In this document: positions 2,704 through 33,221 of the stretch, piece after piece | Layout: each line of letters begins with the position of its first letter | Numbering within the stretch: the stretch's first letter is position 1 | Assembly: GCA_021739645.1 (NCBI GenBank) | Contig: JAIPBL010000036.1 | Span: forward strand, 1 to 57,487 | Direction of reading: 5' to 3' | Length of the DNA: 57,487 bases | DNA from: Saprospiraceae bacterium | GTDB lineage: Bacteria > Bacteroidota > Bacteroidia > Chitinophagales > Saprospiraceae | Notes under the pieces: model-generated | Database searches by the model: none | Seen by the model: only the letters and a program-made list of their open reading frames with translations | Told to the model about the DNA's origin: nothing | Position numbers and translations under genes: made by a program

Positions 2704-2706
2704 CCA

Positions 2707-3477: not shown

Positions 3478-6400
3478 ATGTACAGAGAATTTAAACAACT
3501 CAACCTCCCCAACATCGACCAAGAACTCCTCCAATTCTGGGAGTCCAACAAAATCTTCGAGCAGAGCGTGACCCAGCGCCCCGCCGACAACTCCTGGGTC
3601 TTCTACGAAGGCCCGCCCTCGGCAAACGGCAAGCCGGGCATCCACCACGTCATGGCACGGGCCATCAAGGACATCTTCTGCCGCTACCAGACCCTGAAAG
3701 GGAAGCGGGTGGAACGCAAGGGCGGCTGGGACACCCACGGCCTGCCCATCGAACTGAGTGTGGAAAAGGAACTCGGCATCACGAAGGAGGACATCGGCAA
3801 GAGCATCTCCGTGGACGAGTACAACCACAAATGCCGGGAAACCGTCATGCGCTACAAGAACGAGTGGGACGACATCACCCGCCTGATGGGCTACTGGGTG
3901 GACCTCGACAACCCCTACATCACCTACGAAAACGAGTACATCGAAACCGTCTGGTGGATACTCAAGCGCCTCTACGACAGGAAGTTGATGTACAAAGGCT
4001 ACACCATCCAACCATACTCGCCAGCGGCGGGCACGGGCCTCAGCTCGCACGAATTGAACATGCCCGGCGCTTACAAGGAACTGACGGATACGACGGCAGT
4101 GGCGCTGTTCAAAGTACCTCGGAGCTCCCGCTCCGAGTTCCTCTTCGACGACGAAACCGAAGACGTCCGCATCGCCGCTTGGACCACCACCCCCTGGACA
4201 CTGCCCTCGAACACCGCATTGACCATCGGTCACCAAATTTCCTATGTAAAAATCAAAACGGAGAACCCGTACACGCACCAGCCCGTGAGCGTGGTGCTGG
4301 CCGAGCCGCTCGTGAGCAAATGGTTTGGCGGCAAAAACCAGCCAACCGTGCTGGAACAGAGCGCCCCATTTTCTGCCCAACAACTCGAAGGCGTCAGCTA
4401 CGAGCAATTGCTGCCGTTCGGCAACGAAATCGAACCGATGCTCGGGTACGATGGCGAGTTTCACACCGACGCCTTCCGGGTGTTGGTCAGCGACTTCGTG
4501 ACCACCGAGGACGGCACGGGCGTCGTACACACCGCCCCCAGCTTCGGTGCAGATGACATGAAGGCAGCCAAAACGAGTGGCATCGGCGCCCTCACGCTGG
4601 TGGACAAGCAGGGCAAGTTCAAGGAAAATGTGGGCGAATTCAGCAACCGCTACGTGAAAAACTACACGGACGACCCCGACTATGTGAGCGTTGACGTGGA
4701 CATTGCCGTGAAGCTGAAACTGGAAGGCAAGGCGCTCAACGTCGCCAAGTACGCCCACAACTACCCGCATTGCTGGCGCACCGACAAGCCCGTGCTTTAC
4801 TACCCGCTTGACTCTTGGTTCATCAAGGCCAGCGCCGTGAAGGAGCGCATGTTTGAACTCAACAAGACCATCAACTGGAAGCCCGCCAGCACGGGCGAGG
4901 GCCGCTTCGGCAAATGGCTGGAAAACCTCCAGGATTGGAACCTTAGCCGCAGCCGCTACTGGGGCATCGGGCTGCCCATCTGGCGCACAGCGGATGGGTC
5001 GGTGGAGAAATGTATCAGCTCCATTGCGGAGCTGCAAACAGCAATTGCGCAAGCAAACGAAAAACTGGGGCTGGCGCAAACCGTGCCCGCCGACTTGCAC
5101 CGTCCTTACATTGACGACATCGTTTTGGTGACGGAAGATGGACAGGAAATGCGCCGGGAACTCGACCTGATTGACGTGTGGTTCGACTCCGGCTCGATGC
5201 CCTACGCCCAATGGGGACTGGATTTGGCGAAGTTGAAAGCGGGTGCTGACCGTCCGTTCAAGGCACCTTTCGACAACATGTACCCGGCCGATTTCATCGC
5301 TGAAGGCGTTGACCAAACGAGGGGCTGGTTCTACACGCTGCATGCCATCGCCGTCATGGCTTTTGACCAGGTTTCCTTTAAAAACGTGGTGTCGAACGGC
5401 CTCGTGCTTGACAAGAACGGCAACAAAATGTCCAAGCGCCTCGGTAATGCCGCCGACCCGTTCGAGACGATTGCGAAGTATGGCGCCGATGCCACCCGCT
5501 GGTACATGATTTCCAACGCCGCCCCATGGGACAACCTCAAATTTGACGTAGATGGCATCGCCGAAGTGCAGCGGAAGTTCTTCGGGACGCTGTTCAATAC
5601 CTACAATTTCTTCGCCACCTACGCCAATATTGATGGCTGGAAAATGGACGAGTTCAACGTGATGGACTACTCCAAACGCTCGGAACTCGACCGCTGGGTT
5701 ATTTCCAAATTGTACAGCCTCGTCGCCGATTACCACGCCGCCATGGACGACTACGAACCGCACCGGGCCTGTCGTTTGGTGGAGGATTTTGTGGATGAAC
5801 ACCTGTCAAACTGGTACGTGCGCCTCAGCCGCCGCCGCTTCTGGCGGGGTGAAATGAGCGACGATAAAAATGCCGCCTACCAAACCCTGTTCGAGTGCCT
5901 GATGGTCGTCGGGCAATTGTCCAGTACCGTGGCACCGTTCTTTTCTGACTGGCTTTTCCGCAATTTGACCGCTCCAATCAAGGACGTTGCGAAGCAAAAA
6001 AACACGCCGCTGCGCCACGATAGCGTGCACCTTTCTGACCTAGTTAAACCTGAACCGGACAAGATTGACAAGGCGCTGGAGAAGCGCATGGACTACGCCC
6101 AGCGCATCTGCTCGCTGGCGTTCAGCATCCGGAAGGGGAACGGCCTGCGGGTTCGTTTGCCGCTGCAAAAAATCCTGCTGCCCGTGCTCGACGAGCGTTT
6201 CATCAAGGAAGTGGACGGCGTGAAGGACCTGATTTTGAGCGAAATCAACGTGAAGGAAATCGAGTACATCACCGATGCCAGCGGCTTGCTGAAAAAGCAG
6301 GCGAAGGCCAATTTCAAGACGCTCGGCGCTAAGCTCGGCAAGGACATGAAAGCCGCCGCCGAGCAGATTGGCAAGTTTACCAACGAGGAAATCAATGCGC

Positions 6401-6813
6401 TGGAAAAGGCGGGCAAGATGGCAATTGTTGCCAACGGCAACAACTACGACATCACGCCGGAAGACCTCGTGGTGACGACCGAAGACCTGCCCGGCTGGAA
6501 GGTCGCCTCGGACGGCCCGCTCACCGTCGCCCTCGACGTGACCCTGACGCCGGAACTGGAGGCCGAGGGCATTGCCCGTGACCTCGTGAACCGCATCCAA
6601 AACCTCCGCAAGGACAAGAACTTCAACGTGACCGACCGCATCAACGTGCGCATCGAGCGGCACGAAGAAGTGGAGGCTGCGGTGGAGGGTTTCCGGGAGT
6701 ACATCAAGGCGGAGGTGCTGGCGGATTCACTGATTTTGGCTAGTGAAGTGGAGGGGGATGAGGTGGAGTTGGCGGATGAGGTGAAGGTGCGGATTGAGGT
6801 GGGGTTGAATTAG
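3478..6813 (+). CDS. ileS: Isoleucyl-tRNA synthetase
   Basis: 1111 residues, normal for the long IleS form. It charges tRNA-Ile with isoleucine and edits valine. Class I signatures are present: the HIGH-type motif GIHH at residues 54-57 in GPPSANGKPGIHHVMAR, and KMSKR at 650-654. The editing region has WTTTPWTLPSNTAL, and the C-terminal anticodon-binding and tail domains follow. The ATG at 3478 is 18 bases after the DUF5131 gene, so it probably shares a transcript with tcmP and may be under the Ile-rich leader. A diverged copy of its last 40 or so codons occurs at 15094-15231, evidence that this locus has been rearranged by recombination. Confidence 0.97.
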   Translation: MYREFKQLNLPNIDQELLQFWESNKIFEQSVTQRPADNSWVFYEGPPSANGKPGIHHVMARAIKDIFCRYQTLKGKRVERKGGWDTHGLPIELSVEKELGITKEDIGKSISVDEYNHKCRETVMRYKNEWDDITRLMGYWVDLDNPYITYENEYIETVWWILKRLYDRKLMYKGYTIQPYSPAAGTGLSSHELNMPGAYKELTDTTAVALFKVPRSSRSEFLFDDETEDVRIAAWTTTPWTLPSNTALTIGHQISYVKIKTENPYTHQPVSVVLAEPLVSKWFGGKNQPTVLEQSAPFSAQQLEGVSYEQLLPFGNEIEPMLGYDGEFHTDAFRVLVSDFVTTEDGTGVVHTAPSFGADDMKAAKTSGIGALTLVDKQGKFKENVGEFSNRYVKNYTDDPDYVSVDVDIAVKLKLEGKALNVAKYAHNYPHCWRTDKPVLYYPLDSWFIKASAVKERMFELNKTINWKPASTGEGRFGKWLENLQDWNLSRSRYWGIGLPIWRTADGSVEKCISSIAELQTAIAQANEKLGLAQTVPADLHRPYIDDIVLVTEDGQEMRRELDLIDVWFDSGSMPYAQWGLDLAKLKAGADRPFKAPFDNMYPADFIAEGVDQTRGWFYTLHAIAVMAFDQVSFKNVVSNGLVLDKNGNKMSKRLGNAADPFETIAKYGADATRWYMISNAAPWDNLKFDVDGIAEVQRKFFGTLFNTYNFFATYANIDGWKMDEFNVMDYSKRSELDRWVISKLYSLVADYHAAMDDYEPHRACRLVEDFVDEHLSNWYVRLSRRRFWRGEMSDDKNAAYQTLFECLMVVGQLSSTVAPFFSDWLFRNLTAPIKDVAKQKNTPLRHDSVHLSDLVKPEPDKIDKALEKRMDYAQRICSLAFSIRKGNGLRVRLPLQKILLPVLDERFIKEVDGVKDLILSEINVKEIEYITDASGLLKKQAKANFKTLGAKLGKDMKAAAEQIGKFTNEEINALEKAGKMAIVANGNNYDITPEDLVVTTEDLPGWKVASDGPLTVALDVTLTPELEAEGIARDLVNRIQNLRKDKNFNVTDRINVRIERHEEVEAAVEGFREYIKAEVLADSLILASEVEGDEVELADEVKVRIEVGLN

Positions 6814-6822
6814 AAATCAAGC

Positions 6823-6850
6823 GACGGCGTGACTTTGGAGTCACGCCGTC
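6823..6850 (+). terminator. Perfect hairpin after ileS
   Basis: Stem gacggcgtgact 6823-6834 pairs perfectly with 6839-6850 around a ttgg loop, 9 bases after the ileS stop. There is no T-run, so it may stabilise the 3' end or mark the left edge of the inserted island rather than terminate by itself. Confidence 0.5.
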
Positions 6851-6903
6851 ACTACAATCCGGGGAACAATAAATAGGTATTAAATGTGCTGAGGCTTTAA
6901 TCT

Positions 6904-6925
6904 AAACCACTCCCGGGAGCGGTTT
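6904..6925. promoter_or_regulatory. 22-bp palindrome before the sensor kinase gene
   Basis: aaaccactcccgggagcggttt is a palindrome with one mismatched pair. It ends 10 bases before the ATG at 6936. It could be an operator or an RNA hairpin over the ribosome binding region; the sequence does not decide. Confidence 0.4.
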
Positions 6926-6935
6926 GCAATTGAAA

Positions 6936-9900
6936 ATGGCCATGACGCTGCTACCTGTTTTTCTGAAAAAAAAATGCAGAAGAAAAGTGAAGCTTACCGT
7001 CCATTCGGGTAGCAAGGGCCATCGTTTTTTAGGTTTTTCCCTTATTGTTCTCACAGTTGTGATTTCCTTGCCTTTCAAGGCAATTTCGCAGGAGCGCATT
7101 GGTCCTTATATGGCCTACTCCTGGCGGATGGGACTTTCCGGGGGGCTCAACACGGCTGTGTGCGAGTCGTCGGACGGGTTTCTTTGGATAGCCACAGGCA
7201 ATGGTTTGATTAAGTTTGACGGGCACCATTACCAGCGGATACTGGCGGGGCCGGGCAGCATTTCCGACAATATAGTGACCGAAGTAGCCAGTACGGTTGA
7301 TGGCCGAAGCATTTGGATTGGCGCCTTCCGCCGGGGGGCAGCTCGCTTCGATTTGAGTAGCCAAAAGTTTAGGACCTACCCCAAACTCTGGGCCCATGAT
7401 AGCCACATGCAAAGTGTCCGAAAAATTTTGTGTTTGGAAAATGGCCAGGTTTGGCTGGGCACCAGCGGTATGGGGCTGGCCTTGTACCTGCCGCAAACAG
7501 ATACTTTTCAGTTTTATACGCCAGAGCCGTTGGCCTTTTATGCGGGGGAACCCAATTTGAGCTTCAATACCAGTGACATGACGCCCGACCCGAAAGACCC
7601 TAGCCAAATCTGGTTGGTCTGCAACAACGGGATTTACCGTTTTGACACCCATTTCAAAGAATTCACCGCTTATCCGCTTCCGCCAAAAAGCGATTTTTTT
7701 TGGACGAGCATCGCCCATGATGGGAAGGATGGACTTTGGCTTGGAAGCTGGGGCAACAGCATGTTTCACTTCAACACCAACACCCGCCGATTAACGCAAC
7801 TGGCATATTTCAACCCAAAAGGACAAGAAGAAAAGGGCATGCTGGCATTGGATGTCGAGCAAATCAATGATACCACCGTGCTTTGGGCCTGCGCCCTTTC
7901 AGGCTTGTTGGAGTACAACCCAAAAACCGGGCAATTCAAACAGGCGCTTCCGACCTTCCAACTGGATGCCTCTTCCGATACACAAGTGGAGTATGCTGCT
8001 ATTTCCAAGACAAAGCATGCAGGCGTTTTCATTGGAGCAAAAGGCTATCTTTTTCAACTGCACCCCTACTATTCCCGACTCGGCAAAAGCATTTTTCCGG
8101 CACCATGGGCACCCAACGACGAGATTTATGCCGGAAGAGGGGTGCTTGATAGCCTTACCAGGCAATACCTGATTCCGGCAGCGGGGCCGCTCGGTTTGAT
8201 AGCCATCGAGCAGGCCAGCCTTTCGGCGGGGGCGGTTCCACCTGCGGTGAAAGGGCTGAAAGCATTGACTTTTTCCCCTTCGGGAAAAATTATTGGCTTG
8301 GGTTTCGATGGTATTTTGCACCAGTTGGATGCCGACAAAAAAGGGACTGCGCCGATACCACTGCCCTGCGCTACGAAGGAGAGCATTACTGAAATGAAAA
8401 TGGACAAGCGGGGCTACCTGTGGGCGCTCACGCAACAAAATCTATACAGGCTCGATGCAGCCACCCTCGCTCCAATTGACAGCTTTTCCTTTCTTGATTT
8501 TGAAAAACCGTTGGACAGGCCGTTCAGCATTTTGTACCTGTACCATCTTGAAACGAACGCTGCTGGTGCAGCGTGGGTGGGCTCCAGCCAGGGGCTTTGG
8601 TTGGCCGAACCCGGCAAGAAGCAACTGACGCTATTTCACCCTGAAAACAAAAAAGGGAAATGGCTGAAAGACAAGCTCATAAAGTCAATGACAATGGATG
8701 CCGAAGACCGCCTCTGGGTAGGCTACAATGGCGATGGGTTGGATATTTTCGATACCAAAAAACTAGAAATAGTGAAGTGGCCACAGGGCGCTACGATGCA
8801 CGCCCGGCAAATCAACGACCTTGCCAGCACGCCCGGTGGCTATGTTCTCGCTCTAACCACGGAAGGCTTGCTCGCCATTGACAGAACTAGGCTTGATTGG
8901 CAGCTTTTTGGAACGGAGGATGGCCTTTTTAGCCAGTCTATGGACAAGAGCCTGTGGGTGGCACCCGACGGGATGGTATTTGTGAATCATGGAACCAGGC
9001 TGAACGTTTTCCATGAATCTAGCTTGCAGATTGCGCAAGAAAAACTGAAAGTGAACATCCTACGTTTGACAATCAACAACCTCGGACAGGATTTGGCAGC
9101 TTACCGGGATTCGGTTGAGTACCTTCGGTTGCCTTATTCCTCCAATAATATCTCCATCACCTACTCGGCCATGCACTGGCTGTATCCATTCAAAACACAG
9201 TACCAATATCGCTTTAGCACCGGAAAAGATTCGGGGGAATGGATTGGAATCGAGGAGCCATTTATCCAGTTGAATGCGCTCCAACCGGGACACTACGTGC
9301 TCGAATTAGGCGCAAAAGGAGCTGGGGGCATCCCCAGCCTTCCCAAGGTTTTGCACATCGAAATCCGGCCACCGTTTTGGAAGCAAACTTGGTTCCTCCT
9401 GCTCTGTGCTGGCTTGTTGCTGCTGCTGTTTTATGCTGTTTACCGTTTCAGGTTGACGCAGTTAAAAAAGCAACTGGAAGTACGGGATACCATTTCGAAG
9501 AACCTGCACGACGATATCGGTTCCTCGTTGAGCAATATTCAAATCCTGAATGAACTGGCCCGCAGAAACCTCGGCGACCAAGCAAAGGCAAGCACATTTC
9601 TGGGGCGGGCGGGCGAAGACATCAGGCGCATCAGCGAGGCGTTGAGTGAAATTGTTTGGAACGTAAATCCGAAATACGACGACCTGCAGTTCCTGTTTGC
9701 GAGGATGAAACGCTATGCCGCCGAATCGTTCGAAGGGATAGAAATTCGATACGAACTGGATTTTCCGGAGGATGCCAACCACTTAAAAATGGGCATGGAA
9801 CAGCGGCGGGATTTTTACCTGATTTTCAAGGAGAGCATCCACAATCTGGTAAAATACTCCGGTGCCAATATGGCAAGGGTAAAAGTGGAAGTCCTCCAGC

Positions 9901-10076
9901 ACAAAATCTTATTGGAAGTGTCAGACGACGGGATTGGTTTTTCGAAAACGGAGGGAAATGTCGGCAATGGTTTGATATCCATGCAGCAGCGAGCAGGAAA
10001 ATGGACGGGAAAATTGGTAATAAAAAGCACCGCCGGAGCTGGCACCTCCATTCATCTTTCCATGCCTTTGAAATAG
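6936..10076 (+). CDS. Propeller-type sensor histidine kinase (LytS/NarX-like HisKA_3)
   Basis: About 1046 residues. An N-terminal hydrophobic segment (FLGFSLIVLTVVISLPF) ending in AISQ is a signal sequence. It is followed by about 14 'two-component regulator propeller' style repeats (SSDGFLWIATGNGLIKFDG and similar), a Y_Y_Y-type beta domain (about 700-800), one membrane span near 815-840, a dimerisation/phosphoacceptor helix NLHDDIGSSLSNIQ with His858, and a HATPase_c domain with FKESIHNLVKYS, DDGIGF and GNGLISM. The periplasmic propeller should bind a ligand and pass the signal to a cytoplasmic kinase. The response regulator follows 58 bases later. I chose ATG 6936 over TTG 6924, which lies inside the palindrome. 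Confidence 0.9.
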   Translation: MAMTLLPVFLKKKCRRKVKLTVHSGSKGHRFLGFSLIVLTVVISLPFKAISQERIGPYMAYSWRMGLSGGLNTAVCESSDGFLWIATGNGLIKFDGHHYQRILAGPGSISDNIVTEVASTVDGRSIWIGAFRRGAARFDLSSQKFRTYPKLWAHDSHMQSVRKILCLENGQVWLGTSGMGLALYLPQTDTFQFYTPEPLAFYAGEPNLSFNTSDMTPDPKDPSQIWLVCNNGIYRFDTHFKEFTAYPLPPKSDFFWTSIAHDGKDGLWLGSWGNSMFHFNTNTRRLTQLAYFNPKGQEEKGMLALDVEQINDTTVLWACALSGLLEYNPKTGQFKQALPTFQLDASSDTQVEYAAISKTKHAGVFIGAKGYLFQLHPYYSRLGKSIFPAPWAPNDEIYAGRGVLDSLTRQYLIPAAGPLGLIAIEQASLSAGAVPPAVKGLKALTFSPSGKIIGLGFDGILHQLDADKKGTAPIPLPCATKESITEMKMDKRGYLWALTQQNLYRLDAATLAPIDSFSFLDFEKPLDRPFSILYLYHLETNAAGAAWVGSSQGLWLAEPGKKQLTLFHPENKKGKWLKDKLIKSMTMDAEDRLWVGYNGDGLDIFDTKKLEIVKWPQGATMHARQINDLASTPGGYVLALTTEGLLAIDRTRLDWQLFGTEDGLFSQSMDKSLWVAPDGMVFVNHGTRLNVFHESSLQIAQEKLKVNILRLTINNLGQDLAAYRDSVEYLRLPYSSNNISITYSAMHWLYPFKTQYQYRFSTGKDSGEWIGIEEPFIQLNALQPGHYVLELGAKGAGGIPSLPKVLHIEIRPPFWKQTWFLLLCAGLLLLLFYAVYRFRLTQLKKQLEVRDTISKNLHDDIGSSLSNIQILNELARRNLGDQAKASTFLGRAGEDIRRISEALSEIVWNVNPKYDDLQFLFARMKRYAAESFEGIEIRYELDFPEDANHLKMGMEQRRDFYLIFKESIHNLVKYSGANMARVKVEVLQHKILLEVSDDGIGFSKTEGNVGNGLISMQQRAGKWTGKLVIKSTAGAGTSIHLSMPLK

Positions 10077-10080
10077 GAAG

Positions 10081-10126
10081 TACCCGTAAGGGTAATAGAT
10101 AGTCGCCAAGCTTTGATATACATTTG
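10081..10126 (+). promoter_or_regulatory. Operator-like palindrome plus -7 box before the response regulator gene
   Basis: TACCC-GTAA-GGGTA at 10081-10094 is a perfect inverted repeat. TACATTTG at 10119-10126, exactly TAnnTTTG, starts 38 bases after the palindrome starts. The same arrangement with the same 38-base offset occurs at 10785-10830. LuxR/NarL-type regulators often bind inverted TACC-type half-sites, so the neighbouring regulator is the natural candidate ligand. Arrangement seen; binding inferred. Confidence 0.55.
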
Positions 10127-10133
10127 CAACTTT

Positions 10134-10772
10134 ATGAGCAAGACCAATTTAGTCATTTTCGAAGACAACGAGCGACTCAGGCAATCGCTCGAACTGCTGC
10201 TGTCCGACATCAGTGGCTTCGAGTTGGTGGGGAGCTACGGGAACTTCACCCAACTGGATGAAGTGCTGAGCAAAATCTGCCCCAATATCGCTATGCTGGA
10301 CATTGATATGCCGGACATGACCGGCATCGCAGCCGTCAAGATTATCAAAGAGCGCAGCCCCCTTTGCAGGGTGATGATGTTCACCGTTTTCGACGATGAC
10401 GAGCGCATTTTTCAGAGCATCTGCAACGGAGCTGACGGCTATATTTTAAAAAACACTTCCCCTTTAAAAATCGTCCAAGCCTTGCAGGAACTATCGGAAG
10501 GCGGTACGCCGATGAGCCCCTTCATCGCCCAAAAAATATTCCAGCATTTCAGGCAGGCGAGCAAAACACCTGACTACCACCTCACCACCCGGGAGCAAGA
10601 AATTCTTCAACTTTTGGTGAAAGGCCACAGCTATAAAATGATAGCCGCTGACTGCGCCATCTCACTGGACACAGTAAAAAAACACCTTAAGAACATCTAT
10701 ACCAAACTTCACGTCAGTTGCGGTACAGAAGCCGTGGCGAAAGCGCTGAGAGACCGTATCGTGCCCATCTAA
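10134..10772 (+). CDS. LuxR-type (NarL/FixJ) response regulator
   Basis: 212 residues from ATG 10134. A CheY-like receiver comes first, with acidic pocket E10-D11, phosphoacceptor Asp56 in LDIDMPDMTG, a Thr switch in MMFTVFDDD and Lys in ILKNTSP. The C-terminal LuxR helix-turn-helix reads LTTREQEILQLLVKGHSYKMIA...TVKKHLKNIYTKL. The cognate kinase is the gene just upstream. I chose 10134 because the -7 box at 10119-10126 leaves only a few transcribed bases before it, whereas a start at 10113 would overlap the promoter. It probably activates or represses its own gene and the exported-protein genes downstream through the shared palindrome. Confidence 0.92.
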   Translation: MSKTNLVIFEDNERLRQSLELLLSDISGFELVGSYGNFTQLDEVLSKICPNIAMLDIDMPDMTGIAAVKIIKERSPLCRVMMFTVFDDDERIFQSICNGADGYILKNTSPLKIVQALQELSEGGTPMSPFIAQKIFQHFRQASKTPDYHLTTREQEILQLLVKGHSYKMIAADCAISLDTVKKHLKNIYTKLHVSCGTEAVAKALRDRIVPI

Positions 10773-10784
10773 GCTCCCAGATAG

Positions 10785-10830
10785 TACCCGAAAAGGTAAT
10801 TGCGGAGCCTACTATTTGCCCTCAACTTTG
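10785..10830 (+). promoter_or_regulatory. Second operator-like palindrome plus -7-like box
   Basis: TACCC-GAAA-AGGTA at 10785-10798 resembles the site at 10081. CAACTTTG at 10823-10830 matches TAnnTTTG at 7 of 8 positions and lies at the same 38-base offset. It faces the exported-protein genes beginning at 11093, which would have a leader of about 250 bases. Confidence 0.5.
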
Positions 10831-11092
10831 TCTCGAACATAAATTCCAGAAAAAACTGGAAAGGGATTGAAAAGCCCCACAAACACCTTCTTTTATCAGA
10901 AGTAATACCAACCCACATTCTTGACCCACACCCATACATTCACAGGCCGCCCATTATGAGTTAAATTAATACTCCTATAATAGGCTAAAAACTCATGTGC
11001 TTATCATTGTCAGCCTTGGTTGACGATATGATATGTATGGCGTTCAAAACTAGCCAGTATATCACTAAAAGAAAAACAGTAAAACTCAATCC
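10831..11092 (+). other. Long untranslated leader or spacer before the exported-protein genes
   Basis: About 260 bases without a supportable gene. If transcription starts after the -7-like box at 10823, this would be a 5' leader. I see only short local pairings and no known riboswitch fold. Confidence 0.35.
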
Positions 11093-11950
11093 ATGTCAAC
11101 CATCAAATCTGTATTGCTTTTTGCCTTTGTTCTCAGCTTTGGGAGCAGCTTTGCGAATTCCTTTCTCGGTGTCTATTTAGTAACTGGGAATGACGGTTTG
11201 CGCAGTGGAAATCATGCCTATGTCACGGTCAATTATGCCGATGGTACGTCTTCCCCAGAATACAGATTGCCTCATGCTTATGGGCTTTCTACTGGCCCTT
11301 CCCTTCCAAGCAAAATAGCCTTAAACAAGACAGTAGTCTCGGCAAATGAAATCAAGAGTGTATTGCTCCGTCATGACGGTGCGCCACGTCAAGGCGAGCC
11401 ATTTGATACTTATGACAATTGGGATTTGCAGTCAATCCGTATTACTGTATTCATAGGAGGAGAAGAGGTGGAGGTTTGTAACAAGCTGGGGAATCCATTG
11501 GTGAGGTTTACGGGGAATTTGCGGACTTATGTGCTCAGTGCATCACCTCCACCGCCAGCGAATACTACCAATAAAGTGAAAGTTTACTTTACCACAGGAG
11601 GCGATAATTTGCGCAGCAACAGTAGGGTCATTATGATTGTGAACTATACTGATGGAACGACTTCGCCGGAGATTGATTTCGGTGGTGGTTTCGGACAAAA
11701 CATGGTTATCACACGGACTGCAACGATTAGCAAAAGCGTTGAGAATGTTAGTGCTATAAAAAGCATAACTATCGGTCAAGATGGTGCGCCACGCCAATGG
11801 TTCGAGTCTTATGACAACTGGGATTTGCAAGCCTTGCGGGTTGTACTTATTATGCCCAATGGCATAGAAAAAAACATCATCAACGAATCGGGAAACCCCT
11901 TGATAAGGTTCACTGGTAGTGTCCGCCATCAAACTTGGCTTCGCCGTTAA
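11093..11950 (+). CDS. Exported protein with two tandem PLAT/lectin-like domains
   Basis: 285 residues with a clear signal peptide (SVLLFAFVLSFGSSFAN). The mature part is two copies of one domain: VTGNDGLRSGNHAYVTVNYADGTSSPE...DNWDLQSIRITVF...NPLVRFTG and FTTGGDNLRSNSRVIMIVNYTDGTTSPE...DNWDLQALRVVLI...NPLIRFTG. The TGxDxLR start and DNWDLQ strand recall PLAT-like beta-sandwiches that bind lipids or ligands, but I cannot assign a family with certainty. The second copy has fewer residues between motifs. It is the first of four exported proteins behind the two-component system. Export is secure; ligand unknown. Confidence 0.7.
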   Translation: MSTIKSVLLFAFVLSFGSSFANSFLGVYLVTGNDGLRSGNHAYVTVNYADGTSSPEYRLPHAYGLSTGPSLPSKIALNKTVVSANEIKSVLLRHDGAPRQGEPFDTYDNWDLQSIRITVFIGGEEVEVCNKLGNPLVRFTGNLRTYVLSASPPPPANTTNKVKVYFTTGGDNLRSNSRVIMIVNYTDGTTSPEIDFGGGFGQNMVITRTATISKSVENVSAIKSITIGQDGAPRQWFESYDNWDLQALRVVLIMPNGIEKNIINESGNPLIRFTGSVRHQTWLRR

Positions 11951-11957
11951 ATCAAAA

Positions 11958-12001
11958 GCATCCCCTCGGAGCTGTATGGCTTCAGGGGATTCCTGTTTTT
12001 A
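11958..12001 (+). terminator. Hairpin with T-run after the double-domain gene
   Basis: atcccct 11960-11966 pairs with aggggat 11984-11990, followed by a T-run at 11996-12000. It may attenuate transcription between the first and second exported-protein genes. Confidence 0.5.
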
Positions 12002-12022
12002 TAACCTAAAAATTTATTTTCA

Positions 12023-12640
12023 ATGAAAAAGCATTCAAAATCCATCCTCCTTTTTTGCCTATTCGCTCATTTGAACATGGGCTTGCTCATTGCCCAAAAC
12101 TTGGTGCCCAACCCCCAGTTTGAGATAAACAGGCCCACCTCAGCCACCTACAGTTTCAACAACCCACAAATGGAATGCTACCGCAAGGGATGCACTGAAA
12201 TGGAAAACCTTTTCCGCTATTCGCAAACCCAAAACTGGACGTTGTGGCTGGGAACTACGCTCAACAATGCCTGCGTCATGACAGAATTGGTAAAAACCGC
12301 AGGCAATTGCATCCCTGCCGGACCCAAAGGTTTGAGCGGCAATATGATGCACGTCAAAACCACTTATGGCGGAATGGGCATTGTAAACTCGGACATTCCC
12401 GCAGGGAACAGCAAAGTCAAAATCACATGCTGGGTATATGTGGTGAAAGGCAAGGCATATATGGGGTACGGCCCTACCGGCTCGCCCATTAAGTCTGCGT
12501 CCTCCTCAGCAAATTGCAAATGGGAGAAACTTGAGATTACAAAAACCGGCTCAGAAGCATGTAACCAAGTGGTCATCTATTCCGACAGCGTTGGCGACGC
12601 CGAATTTTATGTGGATGCTGTCAGTGTTGTAAAAATCTAA
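12023..12640 (+). CDS. Exported CBM-like (jelly-roll) protein
   Basis: 205 residues. The signal peptide is KSILLFCLFAHLNMGLLIAQ. The mature protein begins NLVPNPQFE, the usual opening of carbohydrate-binding jelly-roll modules (CBM4/9-like) in Bacteroidota, and ends with a FYVDAVSVVKI strand, also typical. Between are a tryptophan-rich strand (NWTLWLG) and several cysteines (ECYRKGC, CVM, NC, CKW, EAC) suited to disulfides. No sorting domain follows, so its final location is unclear. Sugar binding is inferred from the fold-like pattern. It is the second gene of the exported-protein series, 13 bases before the next. Confidence 0.6.
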   Translation: MKKHSKSILLFCLFAHLNMGLLIAQNLVPNPQFEINRPTSATYSFNNPQMECYRKGCTEMENLFRYSQTQNWTLWLGTTLNNACVMTELVKTAGNCIPAGPKGLSGNMMHVKTTYGGMGIVNSDIPAGNSKVKITCWVYVVKGKAYMGYGPTGSPIKSASSSANCKWEKLEITKTGSEACNQVVIYSDSVGDAEFYVDAVSVVKI

Positions 12641-12653
12641 AAAGAATATTGTC

Positions 12654-13475
12654 ATGAAAATAACGAGCACAATACGGGTTGCCCTAATAACCTTTTCCTT
12701 TTTTGTGGCTCCCGCTTTCATTTTCGCCCAAGGCTCCGTTGATAGCCGTATTTGCAACTGCTTCGCCGCACCCGTGGCCGATAATTTTATGCAGGGCGTA
12801 AAGGCGGTTTATGGCAAAATCGGACTTTACCTCAGCCCAAACTTAGAGATTCCATCACAACAGCTCCAGCCTGTGAAGTTCACCATTCCGGTAATCCAGT
12901 CAAAACAGGGCTGCCAATCTTGGTACAGCATCTATATTACCGACGGTCAGAACAACAAGGTTTATGAGTCGGCTGGCCGGAACAACGAAATCACTTACGC
13001 CTTCCCCGATTGCGACAAAACCTACGCTGTAGTATTGATGGCTTACAGCAAATCCGCCAATGGCGGCGACGGGAATTGCACAAGGAGAATAACCTTCACC
13101 GTAAAACCAACCTGCAATACGGCTTCTTGTGACTGCGGCATAACTGGTAAAAGTGCAGCCTTTGCCCTCAGCGGAGAGGTACAATGCAAGGGCCGGACTG
13201 GCGATGAGAACAGGTACTTGCTGCGGTACAGCGTCACCAATAAATCAAGCTGCATACTGACCATCCAATCTATTACCATGATGAATCAGGTAATCGAAGC
13301 ATCGCCGTCCAAGGTTACGGCCAAGTCTTCCTTGAACGGCATCTCACTCGGCTTTGCCACGCCCTCCAAAGTGCCGATATATTCGGACTCCAAAGTCAGC
13401 GCTGTCGTCCGATACAGCCTGAACGGGCGGAAGTGCAGCGAAACGGTGGAGTTGCCTTATCGGGGTTGCAATTAG
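12654..13475 (+). CDS. Exported cysteine-rich protein of unknown function
   Basis: 273 residues with a signal peptide (VALITFSFFVAPAFIFAQ). About a dozen cysteines occur in the mature part, including ICNCF, CQSW, DCDK, TCNTASCDCG and a final RGCN, so it should be disulfide-stabilised. Two beta-rich halves are likely: residues 25-160 with a fibronectin-like strand pattern (TIPVIQSKQGCQSWYSIYI) and 165-273. I do not recognise the family. It starts 13 bases after the CBM-like gene, so the two are probably co-transcribed and act in the same extracellular process. Confidence 0.55.
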   Translation: MKITSTIRVALITFSFFVAPAFIFAQGSVDSRICNCFAAPVADNFMQGVKAVYGKIGLYLSPNLEIPSQQLQPVKFTIPVIQSKQGCQSWYSIYITDGQNNKVYESAGRNNEITYAFPDCDKTYAVVLMAYSKSANGGDGNCTRRITFTVKPTCNTASCDCGITGKSAAFALSGEVQCKGRTGDENRYLLRYSVTNKSSCILTIQSITMMNQVIEASPSKVTAKSSLNGISLGFATPSKVPIYSDSKVSAVVRYSLNGRKCSETVELPYRGCN

Positions 13476-13586
13476 GTCAATTGGAAAACCAAATGAGAAC
13501 AAGGTTTTGTAATCATTTGAAATAATCCAAGTCAGGACTGACGCAGTATTACTCATACAAGTATGGGCAGCAGTTTCACAATTATA

Positions 13587-13594
13587 TATCTTCG
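13587..13594 (+). promoter_or_regulatory. -7-like box TATCTTCG before the tectonin gene
   Basis: Matches TAnnTTTG at 7 of 8 positions, 17 bases before the ATG at 13612, in a 136-base gap. It suggests that the last gene of the island has its own promoter. Confidence 0.35.
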
Positions 13595-13611
13595 AAAATA
13601 ATCTAAAAATC

Positions 13612-15087
13612 ATGGAAAAAAAATTTGATTTAAAAAAGAACCGGACAAGTATTGATACGCTCCTTTATCCTTGCAAATCAATACTTTTCACTATTTGCAT
13701 TATTCTAATTACCAATACTAATGGTTTTGCACAATGGAAACAAATGCCTGGCAAAGCCAACGATATTGCAATAGGCGGCAACCCTGAACAGATATGGATA
13801 ATAGGCTTTGAATCTCGGGGTGGTGGAAATCAAATCCAAAGATGGACTGGCACCAGTTGGGAAGAAATAGACGGTGGGGCTGTCAAAATTGCAGTGGACG
13901 GCATGGGAATGCCCTGGGTTGTAAATAATGATGGACAAATTTTTAAAAGGCGGTTAAATAATACTTGGGTTGAAATGCCCGGCAGGGCTCGTGATATAGC
14001 CATTGGGGGAGGAGTCGCCTGGATAATCGGCACTGATGCTTATGGGAGCGGGCACAGGGTTTACTATTGGGGGGAATCAAAATGGATACCCGTTGATGCC
14101 GGGGCAGTGGACATTGCAGTGAATGCTGTAGGCACTGTGCATATGGTGGATGCTGGCGGAAATATATGGAGCGGTGAACCGGTTCTTGAAAAAAGCCTGT
14201 CAAATGCTACCAATAGCAGCACATTTGTAAAATCATTCACGAAAGGAAAATATCAAGATGACTACAAGGCAACGGCAGTTGCTGGTGGTGGTACGCCCTC
14301 CCTAGCAGGAGGCCATGAAGTTTGGTATTTAAGCAATCGCCCAGAATCAGGGGGATATTCCATTTGCAGAAGGATATCATCAAGTCTAAACCGGAATCTG
14401 CTTTGGAACGAATATTCCGGAGGGGCAAAATACATAGCGGTGAATAATAGGGGATTGCCCGTCGTGGTCAATGTATATGGCGACATCTTCTTTTGGGATG
14501 AGAATATAAACACCTTTACTATCAGGGTAAATCCGTTAAAAAGAGACATGTGCCCGTTCATCATGACGGAAACGGAGCACCCATGGAGAGATTATCTGCC
14601 CAGCGAGAAGAATCAATATGATAAGGAGCTTAAAAGCGAAGGTGCCACAAATTTTCAATTAGCACTTGCTTTTAATTTAGATAAGGGATTATTGAACCTT
14701 GAAGTTGTCACCTCAGTAAAAGAAGGTGGGTCGAGTTATGACCGTATAGAAAAAGGAATTGGAGTAGGAAAGCTAACTAGAGCAAGGGGAATAACCTATA
14801 TTCCTGTGGTAATTCCCTTACCGGGGAAAAAGATTGTTTCGATAGCCAACAACGCTAGTTTTTCGAATTCATATTTTCTGGAAGAAGGAGGAAGGTTCGA
14901 GCCTTTAGAAGGTTGTGATGGGCCAATTGTCCAGCTAAACGACCCGGGTTACCCGATAAAAATGATACAATTAGTAGGTGATACAGGCGGTGAGGATATT
15001 GCCATAGATACTTACTCCTGTGAATGCAATAGCCGAATCAACTACCTGGAATTGGTTCCGATAAAGGTAACGATGGCTAAAAAGTAA
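13612..15087 (+). CDS. Exported tectonin-repeat (beta-propeller lectin-like) protein
   Basis: 491 residues. A hydrophobic signal (SILFTICIILITNTNGFAQ) follows a basic N-terminus of about 27 residues. Residues about 40-190 hold repeats of the tectonin type: WKQMPGKANDIAIGG..IWIIG, WEEIDGGAVKIAVDG.PWVVNNDGQIF, WVEMPGRARDIAIGG.AWIIG, WIPVDAGAVDIAVNA. Tectonins are beta-propeller lectins that recognise sugars on foreign surfaces in slime moulds, fish and horseshoe crabs. A second set of propeller-like strands follows at 215-330, and a C-terminal domain of about 150 residues is unassigned. The gene is AT-richer than ileS, suggesting transfer. The ileS remnant starts 6 bases after its stop, marking the island edge. 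Confidence 0.75.
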   Translation: MEKKFDLKKNRTSIDTLLYPCKSILFTICIILITNTNGFAQWKQMPGKANDIAIGGNPEQIWIIGFESRGGGNQIQRWTGTSWEEIDGGAVKIAVDGMGMPWVVNNDGQIFKRRLNNTWVEMPGRARDIAIGGGVAWIIGTDAYGSGHRVYYWGESKWIPVDAGAVDIAVNAVGTVHMVDAGGNIWSGEPVLEKSLSNATNSSTFVKSFTKGKYQDDYKATAVAGGGTPSLAGGHEVWYLSNRPESGGYSICRRISSSLNRNLLWNEYSGGAKYIAVNNRGLPVVVNVYGDIFFWDENINTFTIRVNPLKRDMCPFIMTETEHPWRDYLPSEKNQYDKELKSEGATNFQLALAFNLDKGLLNLEVVTSVKEGGSSYDRIEKGIGVGKLTRARGITYIPVVIPLPGKKIVSIANNASFSNSYFLEEGGRFEPLEGCDGPIVQLNDPGYPIKMIQLVGDTGGEDIAIDTYSCECNSRINYLELVPIKVTMAKK

Positions 15088-15093
15088 ACGAGG

Positions 15094-15231
15094 GGAGGAA
15101 TTGAGGCTGCTGTGGAGGGTTTCCGGGAGTACATCAAGGCGGATTCGCTGGTGCTGGCGAGCGAAGTGGAGGGGGATGCGGTGGAATTGAGCGATGAATT
15201 AGTGTTGCGGATTGAGGTGGGACTCAACTAG
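15094..15231 (+). pseudogene. ileS: Remnant of a second ileS: last ~43 codons
   Basis: In frame, 15103-15231 reads EAAVEGFREYIKADSL, then LASEVEGDAVELSDE, then RIEVGLN and a stop. This matches the C-terminus of the full ileS (6675-6813) except for a four-codon gap and some 20-odd base changes over about 130 bases, many of them synonymous. The first 39 bases differ at one position. No start or upstream ileS sequence is present. The pattern of silent changes says that this copy was once a working gene's tail, from a diverged allele, and not a fresh duplication. Confidence 0.85.
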
Positions 15232-15258
15232 AATTTAAGTACCCCAAAATAGCCAAGT

Positions 15259-15297
15259 GCTCAAATCTCGCTGATTTAGTGGGGTTTGAGCTTTTTT
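15259..15297 (+). terminator. Terminator after the ileS remnant
   Basis: gctcaaatc 15259-15267 pairs with ggtttgagc 15283-15291 (one G-T pair), followed by six T. It may be the terminator of the ancestral ileS, left with its tail. Confidence 0.6.
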
Positions 15298-15375: not shown

Positions 15376-16440
15376 TTACCCGATATTTTTGACCTCCTCT
15401 GCCAACCGCTCCGCACACCTATTGCAATATCTCGCCTCCTGCTCGTGGCCATCTTTTCCGCAACGGGGGCAAGGGGTCATATCATAGTTCGCCTTTCTTG
15501 TTTCGTTCACAAATTCAGCCGAAACAATCCCCGTCGGCACAGCGATGACCGCATAACCGGTTATCATGATAATGGCGGCGATGAACTGTCCTTGCCAAGT
15601 CGCTGGGGCAATATCGCCATAGCCCACCGTCGTCAAAGTGACGATAGCCCAATAAATGCTCACGGGTATGCTCGTAAAGCCGGAATCCTGCCCAGCTTCC
15701 ACAATATATAATATAGACCCCATCATCGTGACCACCAACAGGATGAACACCAAAAAAATGGCAATCTTCTCTTTGCTCGCCTTCAGCGATGCCATGATGG
15801 TGTTGCCTGCTTTGAGCAGTTTCACCAGCTTGAGCAATCGGAAAATACGGAACACCCGCAAAATCCGCAGCACGAGGAAAGTATGCGCCCCGACCACGAA
15901 ATAACTGATATAAGTCGGCAGGATGGTCACCAAGTCAATGATGCCAAAAAAACTGGTGGCATAGCGGAATGGCCGCCTGGCGCTGTAAAGCCGCAGCAGA
16001 TATTCAATCGTAAATAAGATAGTGAAAGTCCATTCCAGAATATCCGTGAGCCAAACAAACCGCCTATGAACTGCATCTATGCTGTCAATGATGACCAACA
16101 GCACGCTCAACACGATAGCCACCATGAGCAGGGACTCGAAGAGCCTGCCGAGCGCGGTCTTGTCTTCGAAAAGCATCTGGTGCATCTTCTCCCGAGAGGT
16201 GTCGAGGGTCAAAAAAGTGGCTTTCCACTCTGCTGTTTTTATCCTGAAACTATCCCGGTAGTGCAAAAAACGCAAGTGCCAAACCCTTACCGCAGCATCG
16301 GCATCGGCTTTCCAACTGGGCAACTGCTTTTTGGCCTCGACCTTCATCACAGAAAGTACATCGCCTATTTTTCGGATATGCCGCCGCAACGAAGCCCAGT
16401 TATTTCTGAACAGGTCTTTGATTGATTTCCAGTTTTTCAT
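15376..16440 (-). CDS. Voltage-gated K+ channel with C-terminal zinc ribbon
   Basis: 354 residues from ATG 16440. The alternative TTG at 16467 overlaps a -7-like box and is rejected. A cytoplasmic helical N-terminus of about 100 residues precedes six membrane spans. S4 carries the voltage-sensor pattern VLRILRVFRIFRLLKLVKLLK, the pore helix and selectivity filter read TLTTVGYGD (filter at 271-276), and S6 follows. The tail contains CPRC...CNRC at about 323-345, a zinc-ribbon that is not usual in Kv channels. It should let K+ cross the inner membrane in response to voltage. Neighbours are other ion transporters. Fold call is firm; gating partner of the zinc ribbon is unknown. Confidence 0.92.
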   Translation of the reverse strand: MKNWKSIKDLFRNNWASLRRHIRKIGDVLSVMKVEAKKQLPSWKADADAAVRVWHLRFLHYRDSFRIKTAEWKATFLTLDTSREKMHQMLFEDKTALGRLFESLLMVAIVLSVLLVIIDSIDAVHRRFVWLTDILEWTFTILFTIEYLLRLYSARRPFRYATSFFGIIDLVTILPTYISYFVVGAHTFLVLRILRVFRIFRLLKLVKLLKAGNTIMASLKASKEKIAIFLVFILLVVTMMGSILYIVEAGQDSGFTSIPVSIYWAIVTLTTVGYGDIAPATWQGQFIAAIIMITGYAVIAVPTGIVSAEFVNETRKANYDMTPCPRCGKDGHEQEARYCNRCAERLAEEVKNIG

Positions 16441-16602
16441 CAATTGTTTTGTCGTTTGCTTGCACAAAGTAAATAAACCTTGCCATTTCCGGTATCACGG
16501 CTCCATAGTCCGAAGGGGGACCACATTGAGTTTTGCAAGATGGGAAAGAAACTGCCCCTATACTGGAATGACCCGAAAGAAAGAGGGTGGCACAAACCGA
16601 GG

Positions 16603-16649: not shown

Positions 16650-18917
16650 TCACGCTAAAGCATTCTCACCGCCACCGTCCATGGTAAACAAACAAGATGT
16701 CTCAAGTGCATCAATGCGTCGGCGGATGGCATCCATATCCACTTCCCCGGGCTTCATTATCAGGATGTTTAGATCGGCGTGAGGGGCATCAGGGCCAGCG
16801 GTTTCCGCATTACCTTGCACAAAATACATCTGGGCATTGGGTATCCTTGCCAAGATGGAGAGTTTTTTCAAAAAAGCGGTGGCAACCTCCTCATCAATCG
16901 TATCGTCGAGTTTGGCAATGAAATTCAGTTTGCCTTTCCAGTTCCGGTGCAGCAGATAGGCCGTGAGCAGGCCCAGGTTCTTGTCCTCGATTTTGTGTTC
17001 CACATCAAAGTCAAGATGGCGGAGGTCGAGCCAAAGATTGAGCGTTTTTTCCAGGCCCAAACCCACCTTTTTATAAGGCATATAGAGATAAGAGCCTAAA
17101 CCATACTGCCTTGCTTTATCAATCAAAACCTTGAAATCTTCATCCCTATCTGTCTCGTCGGTAAGGCTGAGAAAGAGGGTATTGGGGGTGAAAAAAGATG
17201 CCATCAAACCCTGCATACAAGTCAGCACGCCAGACCGGAAACTCTCCGCTTCCACCATGGCCGATGAAGCGCTGATGTTCTGTTCCATAAAATAATCGCA
17301 AAGTTCGGGCAGCCGTTCTCTCATCTTTTTGGCATAAGCGCTGTTGCCAGTGTCAAAGCCGAGTATTTTCACAGAACCTTTTGGGCGGGAAAGGTTGTAG
17401 AGCGATTTGTAACAGCGCACCACATCGTTTATTGTTTGGGCAGGCACAAGCAGGTTGGGCTGCCACGCCCGTTCGCTGGCTTCTGGCAAGCGGCTTACCA
17501 CCTTTGCAGACCATTCCGCTAGGGAATTGAACATCCCGCTGCGGGTGTCTCCTTCTTCTGTTTCAAGGTTTTTTTGCTTCGACAAATAAACGTACATGGC
17601 CAGCACCAGTGCGATAGATACCAGCCCCACCGTAGCGTTGATGATGAACATGACGAAAAAACAGCCAATGGCACCGAGCAATGGCACGATGATAGGCACC
17701 TTCAAGGTAGGGCGGAAACTTATCTGCCCCAAGCCCTGCTCTACCAGCACCACTACGTTTATCATGGCATAAGTTATGAGGAAAAACATCGTGAGCAAGG
17801 GGGCGATGGCATTCAAGTCACGGAGCAAAAGCGAAAGCAACACGATGACTGTTGTAAAATAAAGGGCAAATTTTGGCTCGCCCTTCTTGTCCGTGCTCGC
17901 CAGTTTTTTGTTCATGAACAGGATATTGTTCTGACCCAGGGCCTGCAAAATCCGAGGGGCGCCCACCAAGGATGCCAACGCCGAGGAAAAAGTGGCCCCC
18001 AGCAGCCCCGCCACCACCAAAGGAGCAAAATAGGACTTATCAATCAGGATGTTATAGTTTTCCAACAACTCTTGGGGCGTTGCCAAAAAAGCCACTAAAA
18101 TAGCCATCCCAACATAAACGAAATAGCTCAGACCAACAGCCGCCAAAGTACCCACCGGGATACTGCTGCGGGGGTCTTTCAAGTCGCCGGACATGTTCGC
18201 CCCGGCCATGATGCCCGTCACAGCAGGGAAATATACGGCGAACACTATCCAAAAATTGGAGCCCGAAAAGCCGTTTTCCTGCGAGCCTTCGTAATTGCCT
18301 AACCAGCGCACATCAAGGTTGACCGGGTGTGTCAAGAAACCCATGCCGATAGAAACAATGGACAATAAGATAATGGCCAGAACGAGGTATTGTATCTTGA
18401 AAGCGAAGTCGGTACTGATGTTGGCGATGATGAATATAAAAGCAAAGATTGCCAAATCCACCAACAGTGCCGGGTGTGTTGGGAACACCCAAAGCCAGCC
18501 CTCCCGGAAGCCGAACACGTACATCGCCACTGCGAACGCTTGGGCAATATAAAGCGGGATGCCGATGGCGCCCCCTGCTTCCAGCCCCAAAGATTGGGCG
18601 ATGATAGAAAACGCCCCGCCCGCCTTGATGCGGATGTTTGTCACAATGCTCGACATGGAAAGCGAGGTGAAAAGCGTGATGACCGTCGCCAAGGTGATGA
18701 TTCCGATAGCGCCAAGCACACCGGCATTCCCGACAACCCATGGCCCCCGCAGGAACATGATGACCCCGAGGATGGTGAGCAAGGTAGGCGTGAACACGCC
18801 TTGGAACATTCCGAACTTGATAGGTGCTTTTTTATAAGGTGGTGTGTTCGCCGCCCCTGTTTCGTTGGCCGAAACTGCCGATGCAGCAAAAGGGTGCAAT
18901 GTTTTGTCATTTTTCAT
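16650..18917 (-). CDS. SLC12-like cation-chloride cotransporter (APC superfamily)
   Basis: 755 residues from ATG 18917; a TTG three codons upstream is less likely. After a short N-terminus, residues 30-480 hold about 12 membrane spans in the APC fold. The first span FGMFQGVFTPTLLTILGVIMFLR..WVVGNAG closely follows the Na-K-Cl/K-Cl cotransporter pattern, and FAVYFPAVTGIMAGANMSGDLKDP is another family hallmark. A cytoplasmic C-terminal domain of about 270 residues is also SLC12-like (VKILGFDTGNSAYAKKMRE). It probably moves K+ and/or Na+ with Cl- across the inner membrane. Next to a K+ channel and an outer-membrane protein on the same strand, it suggests coordinated salt handling. The transported ions are inferred. 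Confidence 0.85.
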   Translation of the reverse strand: MKNDKTLHPFAASAVSANETGAANTPPYKKAPIKFGMFQGVFTPTLLTILGVIMFLRGPWVVGNAGVLGAIGIITLATVITLFTSLSMSSIVTNIRIKAGGAFSIIAQSLGLEAGGAIGIPLYIAQAFAVAMYVFGFREGWLWVFPTHPALLVDLAIFAFIFIIANISTDFAFKIQYLVLAIILLSIVSIGMGFLTHPVNLDVRWLGNYEGSQENGFSGSNFWIVFAVYFPAVTGIMAGANMSGDLKDPRSSIPVGTLAAVGLSYFVYVGMAILVAFLATPQELLENYNILIDKSYFAPLVVAGLLGATFSSALASLVGAPRILQALGQNNILFMNKKLASTDKKGEPKFALYFTTVIVLLSLLLRDLNAIAPLLTMFFLITYAMINVVVLVEQGLGQISFRPTLKVPIIVPLLGAIGCFFVMFIINATVGLVSIALVLAMYVYLSKQKNLETEEGDTRSGMFNSLAEWSAKVVSRLPEASERAWQPNLLVPAQTINDVVRCYKSLYNLSRPKGSVKILGFDTGNSAYAKKMRERLPELCDYFMEQNISASSAMVEAESFRSGVLTCMQGLMASFFTPNTLFLSLTDETDRDEDFKVLIDKARQYGLGSYLYMPYKKVGLGLEKTLNLWLDLRHLDFDVEHKIEDKNLGLLTAYLLHRNWKGKLNFIAKLDDTIDEEVATAFLKKLSILARIPNAQMYFVQGNAETAGPDAPHADLNILIMKPGEVDMDAIRRRIDALETSCLFTMDGGGENALA

Positions 18918-18996
18918 AAATAACAAATTAAAGTTGGTGTAAAGTTGAAATAAAAAAAATCAGATTTCAGAATCAGACCACCTACACTCAAATTGG

Positions 18997-32990: not shown

Positions 32991-33221
32991 ATGCAAGAAC
33001 TCATCAAGCGCATTACCATTGACCCAGAAATTTGCCACGGAAAACCGACCGTCCGTGGCTCTCGCCTGATGGTAGCTACAATACTTGAGCTGATGGCAAG
33101 TGACATGACAGTTGATGAAATATTGGCCGATTATCCAGCACTGGAAGTGGCAGATATTAAGGCCTGTTTACAGTATGCGGCCATGTTGGCGAAGTTTCAA
33201 AGCATACCCTTGGCAGCATGA
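32991..33221 (+). CDS. DUF433 antitoxin
   Basis: 76 residues. The sequence ITIDPEICHGKPTVRGSRLMVATILELMASDMTVDEILADYPALEVADIKACLQYAA is a full DUF433 domain, a winged-helix-like fold found in VapB-type antitoxins. It should bind and neutralise the DUF5615 protein encoded next and probably represses the shared promoter. Its stop overlaps the next start (ATGA at 33218), normal for co-translated pairs. Composition is AT-richer than purD. Family confident; pairing well supported by context. Confidence 0.9.
   Translation: MQELIKRITIDPEICHGKPTVRGSRLMVATILELMASDMTVDEILADYPALEVADIKACLQYAAMLAKFQSIPLAA

Follow-up and report, generated by a model that had tools for sequence, protein, structure and literature searches.

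How did a block of genes for signalling and exported-looking proteins come to lie between two copies of the 3' end of a single aminoacyl-tRNA synthetase gene? The question is posed by contig C19 (positions 1-57487, hereafter the window) of a 6.16-Mb Saprospiraceae assembly (147 contigs, 3.33% contamination). There, a full-length ileS gene for the 1111-amino-acid isoleucyl-tRNA synthetase (3478-6813, recognized as an open reading frame (ORF) and by homology; features are on the plus strand unless stated otherwise) is followed by 8.2 kb encoding a propeller-type histidine kinase, a LuxR-type regulator and four exported-looking proteins, and then by a second, diverged ileS end. A like duplication upstream of ileS, missed by a first-pass annotation of the window, consists of two leader copies (745-922 and 1576-1738). 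With moderate confidence, we favor a reading in which ileS would be a two-sided insertion locus entered by single-crossover (Campbell-type) homologous recombination with no dedicated integrase, the sequence at 6673-6713 being the likely exchange site on the 3' side. Relatives were drawn from 14 genomes of the genus (13 besides that of the window), fragmented metagenome assemblies of uncultured bacteria. The ileS end is present in 11 of these 13; the G012 assembly is without ileS and the G001 contig breaks inside the gene.

A diverged second end of ileS

Four direct-repeat families of at least 45 nt were found in the 57,487-nt window, and they comprise only the ileS tail (D1, D3) and the ileS leader (D2, D4). 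Tail 1, inside the working gene (6666-6821), was delimited by repeat analysis, blastn and codon comparison, and tail 2, beyond the block (15094-15239), by repeat analysis, protein match and codon comparison. Homology spans approximately 6666-6821 versus 15096-15239, with 75.8% identity over 149 nt (blastn, E ~1e-26) and a longest common exact run of 32 nt. Tail 2 has 45 codons and a stop codon with no start of its own, its coding part running from 15094 or 15097 to 15228 and the stop ending at 15231. It lacks four codons (EVLA), a 12-bp deletion that sits between GGCGGA direct repeats, and it follows the last ORF of the block, which ends at 15087, after a gap of 6 bases. From 6673 onward 16 codons differ between the tails, 10 of them silently, and substitution rates (NG86) are 0.11 for dN and 0.59 for dS. 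Mismatches number 1 in 36 aligned nt of the near-identical 5' core (6673-6713) and 21 in the 93 nt that follow (Fisher P = 0.0076). Because the frame is kept and change is mostly silent, tail 2 is, judged from its sequence, an end that diverged while part of a working ileS allele, under selection. The first-pass annotation had described a diverged second tail with mainly silent changes and a four-codon deletion, six bases behind the last gene of the block, and was correct on each of these points.

Tail 2 is the sole further ileS-tail match in the 6.16-Mb assembly; a whole-IleS protein query added two distant synthetase-like matches, on contigs C11 and C55. No second tail was found in any of 36 other ileS regions examined, each with 0.7-19 kb of downstream DNA and some genomes represented twice. 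Within the genus, the available sequence shows no such duplicate in any of the 11 relatives that have an ileS end. Six of them gave tail matches of 16-24 nt, the best with an E value of 0.001 and none supported at the protein level. Tail duplication as a family-wide feature was considered and rejected: two ileS-tail matches occurred in 7 of 398 genomes, the window's included, and in the two others inspected (G035 and G273), one of the matches lay at a contig edge. Behind tail 2, a GC-rich terminator (15257-15297, by sequence comparison) resembles that after the single ileS of G011; alignment of tail 2 to the G011 ileS end continues across the terminator, over 209 nt at 69% identity.

Two observations concern the DNA immediately behind ileS. 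A perfect 12-bp hairpin at 6823-6850 directly follows tail 1 with no T run behind it, and none was seen by eye after the G013 ileS. Inspection by eye also revealed, in G158 and G237 (loci L007 and L008), a short ileS-end-like stub in the 35 nt that follow the stop codon of ileS, possibly another displaced or duplicated end.

Replacement of the ileS end in relatives

Pairwise identity over the last 88 nt of ileS was compared with that over the preceding 314 nt (131 nt upstream for W-G013), W denoting the window ileS and G002-G013 its genus relatives. The sharpest contrast was seen for G005-G011, which are 92.4% identical upstream versus 51.1% in the tail (differences 24/314 versus 43/88, P = 6e-17). 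Falls were also marked for W-G005 (85.7 to 52.3%, P = 3e-10), W-G011 (86.9 to 60.2%, P = 1e-7), G006-G011 (82.2 to 59.1%), G006-G005 (81.2 to 59.1%), W-G003 (90.1 to 71.6%, P = 4e-5) and W-G013 (87.8 to 72.7%). No significant drop was seen for W-G008 (88.5 versus 83.0%, P = 0.20), W-G006 (86.0 versus 80.7%, P = 0.24), G006-G008 (84.1% in both parts) or G002-G004 (92.7 versus 87.5%, P = 0.13). Since several pairs show no drop, the ileS tail is not simply fast-evolving and was replaced in some lineages. The comparison thus supports replacement of the last ~30 codons of ileS in several relatives, with the rest of the gene retained. Relatives with a replaced tail also differ in the gene downstream.

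Which of the two tails is native to the window is a question on which the facts do not agree. The nearest tails to tail 1 are those of G008 and G006, as expected under vertical descent. Tail 2 might be placed with G011 by the alignment across the terminator; within the tail alone it is 71% identical to G011, 77% to tail 1 and 73% to G008. The kinase is linked to ileS in G013 as well, and there the tail in front of the kinase gene is 72.7% identical to tail 1, near the 74% between the two kinase genes.

Turnover of genes downstream of ileS

The first gene behind ileS varies across G002-G011 and G013, the window's kinase being common to G013. It encodes an AAA ATPase in G006 (HEC-01A by PADLOC), a Schlafen/AlbA_2 protein in G005, an AAA ATPase with a DUF4276 protein (AbiLi/HEC-01-like) in G010, a SIMPL protein and others in G011, a PQ-loop protein in G008 and PurD in G002; in the remaining four genomes it matches none of these first genes. 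A control for synteny came from G003 contig C23 and G008 contig C39, which keep collinearity over 10 kb and more away from ileS, yet the ileS flanks of these two genomes differ. Outside the genus, two genes directly after ileS in G237 (L162, 5279-6306) are absent from its congener G158 (L159) and the next gene is common to both, insertion versus loss not being polarized. The first-pass annotation had called ileS an integration boundary; together, these comparisons support ileS as a boundary at which cargo changes between relatives.

That annotation had also asked whether the K+ channel gene adjoining tail 2 (15376-16467, minus strand, Pfam Ion_trans) follows ileS directly where the block is absent. 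In the sequence available for the 11 genus relatives that have an ileS end, the channel follows ileS in none, several of the contigs being short (reaching 1.6 kb past ileS in G005, 2.1 kb in G002, 3.1 kb in G013 and 6.5 kb in G010), and the channel was rejected as the ancestral neighbor. Its closest genus relative, 60% identical, lies away from ileS (G007 contig C24), and for the adjacent cotransporter gene (16650-18926) the threshold used left only genus matches of 34-37% identity. A polyprenyl synthetase gene was likewise rejected as ancestral right neighbor; it follows the cargo only in G005, G006 and G011, and in G003 and G008 it lies at another, mutually collinear locus. A close orthologue of the window kinase occurs in only 1 of the 13 other genomes (G013, 71% amino acid identity, also after ileS; next best 38%).

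The right-hand flank of the window looks accessory as well. The purD gene lies ~0.5 kb after ileS in G002 and at 31668, in the same orientation, in the window; therefore, the whole intervening 25 kb may be accessory. Between 24.0 and 29.6 kb, matches are scattered among G002, G004, G007, G010 and G013, and over 19.8-39.7 kb the longer blocks common to G003, G005, G006, G008 and G012 begin at ~30.0 kb.

An isoleucine leader upstream of ileS

The upstream repeat looks like an isoleucine-codon attenuator with a terminator. Leader copy 1 (745-922; covariance model R1 match 747-924, E = 1.7e-23; also recognized by its ORF and as a direct repeat of copy 2) has a terminator and a leader ORF that contains four Ile codons and is perturbed by a small palindrome. 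Copy 2 (1576-1741; R1 match 1578-1740, E = 4.8e-33; also supported by fold prediction and stem covariation) encodes the peptide MLPSSIIISITIPTLPGNL (1608-1667), followed by a predicted antiterminator and a terminator stem at ~1693-1727. In 14 of 16 aligned copies the leader ORF is closed and 10-40 codons long, 4-7 of them for Ile; two G001 copies have an Ile-rich start with an ORF that runs on. Fifteen of these 16 copies were found by DNA similarity and not by Ile content, and a separate Ile-selecting scan provides no independent test. In the terminator stem, 99.6% of cells are paired, two-sided changes are seen in 4 pairs and 8 cells, and none of 500 shuffles reached its cell count or covariation score. 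Comparative support for the antiterminator is modest: 94.5% of cells are paired, but 41 of 500 shuffles reach that value and only one pair is doubly changed. Fold prediction gives an antiterminator for window copy 2, and palindromic-variant copies (window copy 1, that of G006 and the second of G008) pair less well. By eye, a small palindrome (CCCGAT...ATCGGG type; window ~794-810 and 829-846; also L027 leaders) has spread into several leader copies, disturbing the leader ORF or the antiterminator.

A covariance-model search of the genus, in which 150 candidates per genome were scored, gave 18 strong matches (E < 1e-18) in 11 of the 14 genomes, 16 of them on the ileS contig. The two others, on G011 contig C172 and G012 contig C55, lie near contig ends, and 24 bp are common to the ends of G011 C172 and the G011 ileS contig. 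Weak full-length matches occur just before ileS in G002 and G004, G013 had no match to the model, and ~10 further weak matches on other contigs (E 1e-6 to 1e-3) mostly concern the terminator half. Among Rfam leaders, His_leader (32.8 versus 49 bits) and Thr_leader (26.1 versus 55 bits) scored below their gathering thresholds. Across the family, strict filters left leader matches in 30 of 120 genomes, the window's included; among those checked, the leader lies just upstream of ileS in 16 other family genomes by coordinates, and in G113 and G161 by reading of the locus. It stands directly before ileS at loci L015, L007, L008 and L025 and in G113, a single-contig genome.

Cargo behind leader copies

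Cargo families were assigned with Pfam or PADLOC, by tblastn with the window Uma2 protein, and otherwise by eye. A gene for a Uma2-family protein (955-1569; PADLOC candidate PDC-S03, 2.4e-26; Pfam PF05685, 2.8e-32) lies between the window leader copies. Between the second copy and ileS are the genes for PDC-M41A (1789-2703; PADLOC 8.2e-111, no Pfam match), whose product we take to be TcmP-like, and for a DUF5131 protein, PDC-M41B (2707-3459; Pfam 1.4e-98, PADLOC 1.3e-126), ending 18 nt before ileS. Both components of the PDC-M41 candidate defense pair are thus present and adjacent (1789-3459), and because the pair sits between attenuator and ileS, none of the leader copies detected in the window adjoins ileS itself.

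The window order of leader, Uma2, leader, TcmP-DUF5131, ileS has counterparts across the genus. G001 has leader-Uma2-leader-Uma2-leader-UPF0175-like and PIN-like pair-leader-VapBC-leader-ileS, G011 has Uma2-leader-VapBC-(contig gap)-leader-ileS, G012 has Uma2-leader-UPF0175 and PIN-like pair-leader-VapBC-contig end, and G008 has leader-Uma2-leader-DUF433-DUF5615-ileS. In these four genomes and the window, leader copies separate the cargo genes. Shorter orders are VapBC-leader-ileS in G007, Uma2-leader-ileS in G009, Uma2-leader-DUF922 protein-ileS in G005, Uma2 remnant-leader-unknown-ileS in G006, and leader-one gene-ileS in G003 and G010. The first gene of an array is often preceded by a leader fragment only (G005, G006, G007). 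With antisense ORFs over the cargo left out, all 30 cargo genes counted by eye, one remnant included, are on the ileS strand. The simplest case, leader-0.65-kb gene-leader-ileS, comes from another genus (G165); there the two leaders agree at 97-98% of positions in stretches of 36 and 108 nt, and similarity stops with the leader. Leader copies sort neither by genome nor by the gene behind them; those of G006 and G012 and the second of G008 are 90-93% alike despite different cargo. Genes slotted beside ileS in the genus are often toxin-antitoxin or candidate phage-defense genes, in several cases flanked on both sides by copies of the same ileS-unit end. A DUF5615 gene elsewhere in the window (33218-33571) has a relative (43% amino acid identity) in the leader-headed DUF433/DUF5615 pair of G008.

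The block between the two tails

Within the block, the two-component propeller histidine kinase gene (6924-10076; Pfam Reg_prop, HisKA_3 and HATPase_c) is followed by that for a LuxR-type response regulator (10113-10772; Response_reg and GerE). Four genes for proteins judged by eye to carry export signals come next: a two-repeat protein with no Pfam match (11093-11950), two ORFs with no Pfam match (12023-12640 and 12654-13475) and, last in the block, a tectonin-domain protein (13612-15087; Pfam Tectonin, 4e-8). The G013 contig ends inside the kinase gene that follows ileS. Relatives of the two-repeat (by tblastn) and tectonin proteins are encoded on G013 contig C772, which has no ileS tail and whose connection to the G013 ileS contig is not established.

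Possible routes to the present arrangement

If ileS is a two-sided insertion locus, incoming DNA carrying cargo together with either the leader or the 3' end of the ileS unit would recombine with its resident counterpart, and the cargo would be left between two copies of that piece. The downstream product in the window would be ileS, the kinase/regulator/exported-protein block and a second tail with its terminator; the upstream product would be the leader-headed Uma2 and TcmP-DUF5131 genes in front of ileS. Excision between two leader copies would yield a circle of leader plus cargo able to enter at any other leader. With gaps of 48 and 18 nt, the window TcmP-DUF5131 genes appear to be cotranscribed with ileS downstream of leader 2. 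Ribosome stalling at the leader Ile codons would allow an antiterminator to form, and scarcity of charged tRNA-Ile would then probably lead to expression of the upstream cargo along with ileS. A broader version is less probable: the ileS promoter-attenuator may be a reusable module header, with arrayed toxin-antitoxin and defense genes each behind a copy of their own and switched on with ileS upon loss of charged tRNA-Ile, and the repeats (leader and 3' end) may be the handles of an integrase-free cassette system.

Several points weigh against recombination of this kind. The second tail is unique, so that the 3' case rests on one event, and the mosaic of tails 1 and 2 is only moderately significant (P = 0.0076). 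Downstream DNA has changed without tail replacement too (G002-G004, W-G008, W-G006), and the vertical-like affinity of tail 1 with G008 and G006 fits poorly with its arrival alongside the kinase. The G165 cargo gene is on the opposite strand. A recombinase acting in trans would, moreover, leave much the same pattern. The first-pass claim that foreign ileS-linked DNA recombined here stands in part: divergence of tail 2 in another ileS allele and tail replacement in relatives are supported, but a simple empty site was not found.

Elements that integrate in the 3' ends of genes can replace the gene end and duplicate it at the far side of the insert. If a recombinase that has since disappeared, or that acts in trans, had integrated such an element site-specifically into the 3' end of ileS, tail 1 would have come with the element and the native tail 2, with its terminator, would have been displaced to the far end. 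A near-identical core followed by divergence, the alignment of tail 2 with the G011 ileS end across the terminator, and the linkage of tail and kinase in G013 are as expected from such an event, and the ileS tail, with its 32-nt exact run, constitutes an att-like flanking direct repeat. The integrase or transposase of an integrase-borne island was not found, however. As noted at first pass, none is visible: Pfam matches to an integrase, transposase or recombinase were absent from the 40 window ORFs of at least 90 amino acids that were scanned, a set that excludes ileS itself and smaller ORFs and in which several ORFs have no Pfam match and are of unknown family. The cargo at the site is also very different between genomes, tail 1 looks vertically inherited with G008 and G006, and leader duplication, a departure from known 3'-end-integrating elements, would need a separate explanation. 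We consider this route unlikely.

Selection on tail 2 (dN/dS ~0.2) would equally follow had a complete foreign ileS once been gained in tandem and deleted down to its tail, the block being carried along or gained later. The assembly holds no other ileS remnant, and the fragment starts at the near-identical core and not at a random point, which makes this history quite improbable. A chimera of two metagenome genotypes joined at the ileS repeat might be suspected from a draft of 147 contigs with 3.33% contamination and a 32-nt exact repeat. Such a join is very improbable: at its left edge tail 2 passes directly into block DNA, with no long exact match between the copies there, so a simple repeat-induced join does not explain tail 2, and a kinase after ileS recurs in a separate assembly (G013).

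Relation to known systems and significance

Leader-peptide transcription attenuators are known for amino-acid and aminoacyl-tRNA synthetase genes (trpS, leuS and pheST; PMC1262725; for general work on leader genes, see PMC4833913). They share with the present element a short ORF rich in cognate codons, a terminator and a position upstream of the synthetase gene, and they have an alternative antiterminator such as is predicted here for window copy 2; they differ in that the element here concerns isoleucine and ileS in Saprospiraceae and is copied before unrelated cargo. Actinobacterial ileS T-boxes (PMC1262725) are likewise predicted to make ileS respond, through RNA, to the charging of tRNA-Ile, but they are T-boxes acting on translation and not leader peptides. 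The toiL upstream ORF of Escherichia coli TopAI-YjhQ (PMC12121999) likewise senses translation stress and controls a toxin-antitoxin pair, but at a single locus, by ribosome-binding-site occlusion and Rho, and is not copied from a synthetase gene. Defense hotspots flanked by core genes (PMC10250203) resemble ileS in their variable defense cargo; here pieces of ileS are duplicated around the cargo. Among the matches listed, which leave most subscription journals outside coverage, no paper described a Bacteroidota ileS leader peptide or attenuator copies heading toxin-antitoxin genes, and none described the apparent bracketing of cargo by ileS pieces; literature on Saprospiraceae with a leader peptide was not found.

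If the proposed reading is true, an essential synthetase gene would serve as a recombination-driven dock for defense and toxin-antitoxin genes, to which it would lend its amino-acid sensor. The locus would also show how cargo beside a core gene can be exchanged with no integrase involved, and isoleucine starvation would be linked to the expression of defense genes in these bacteria.

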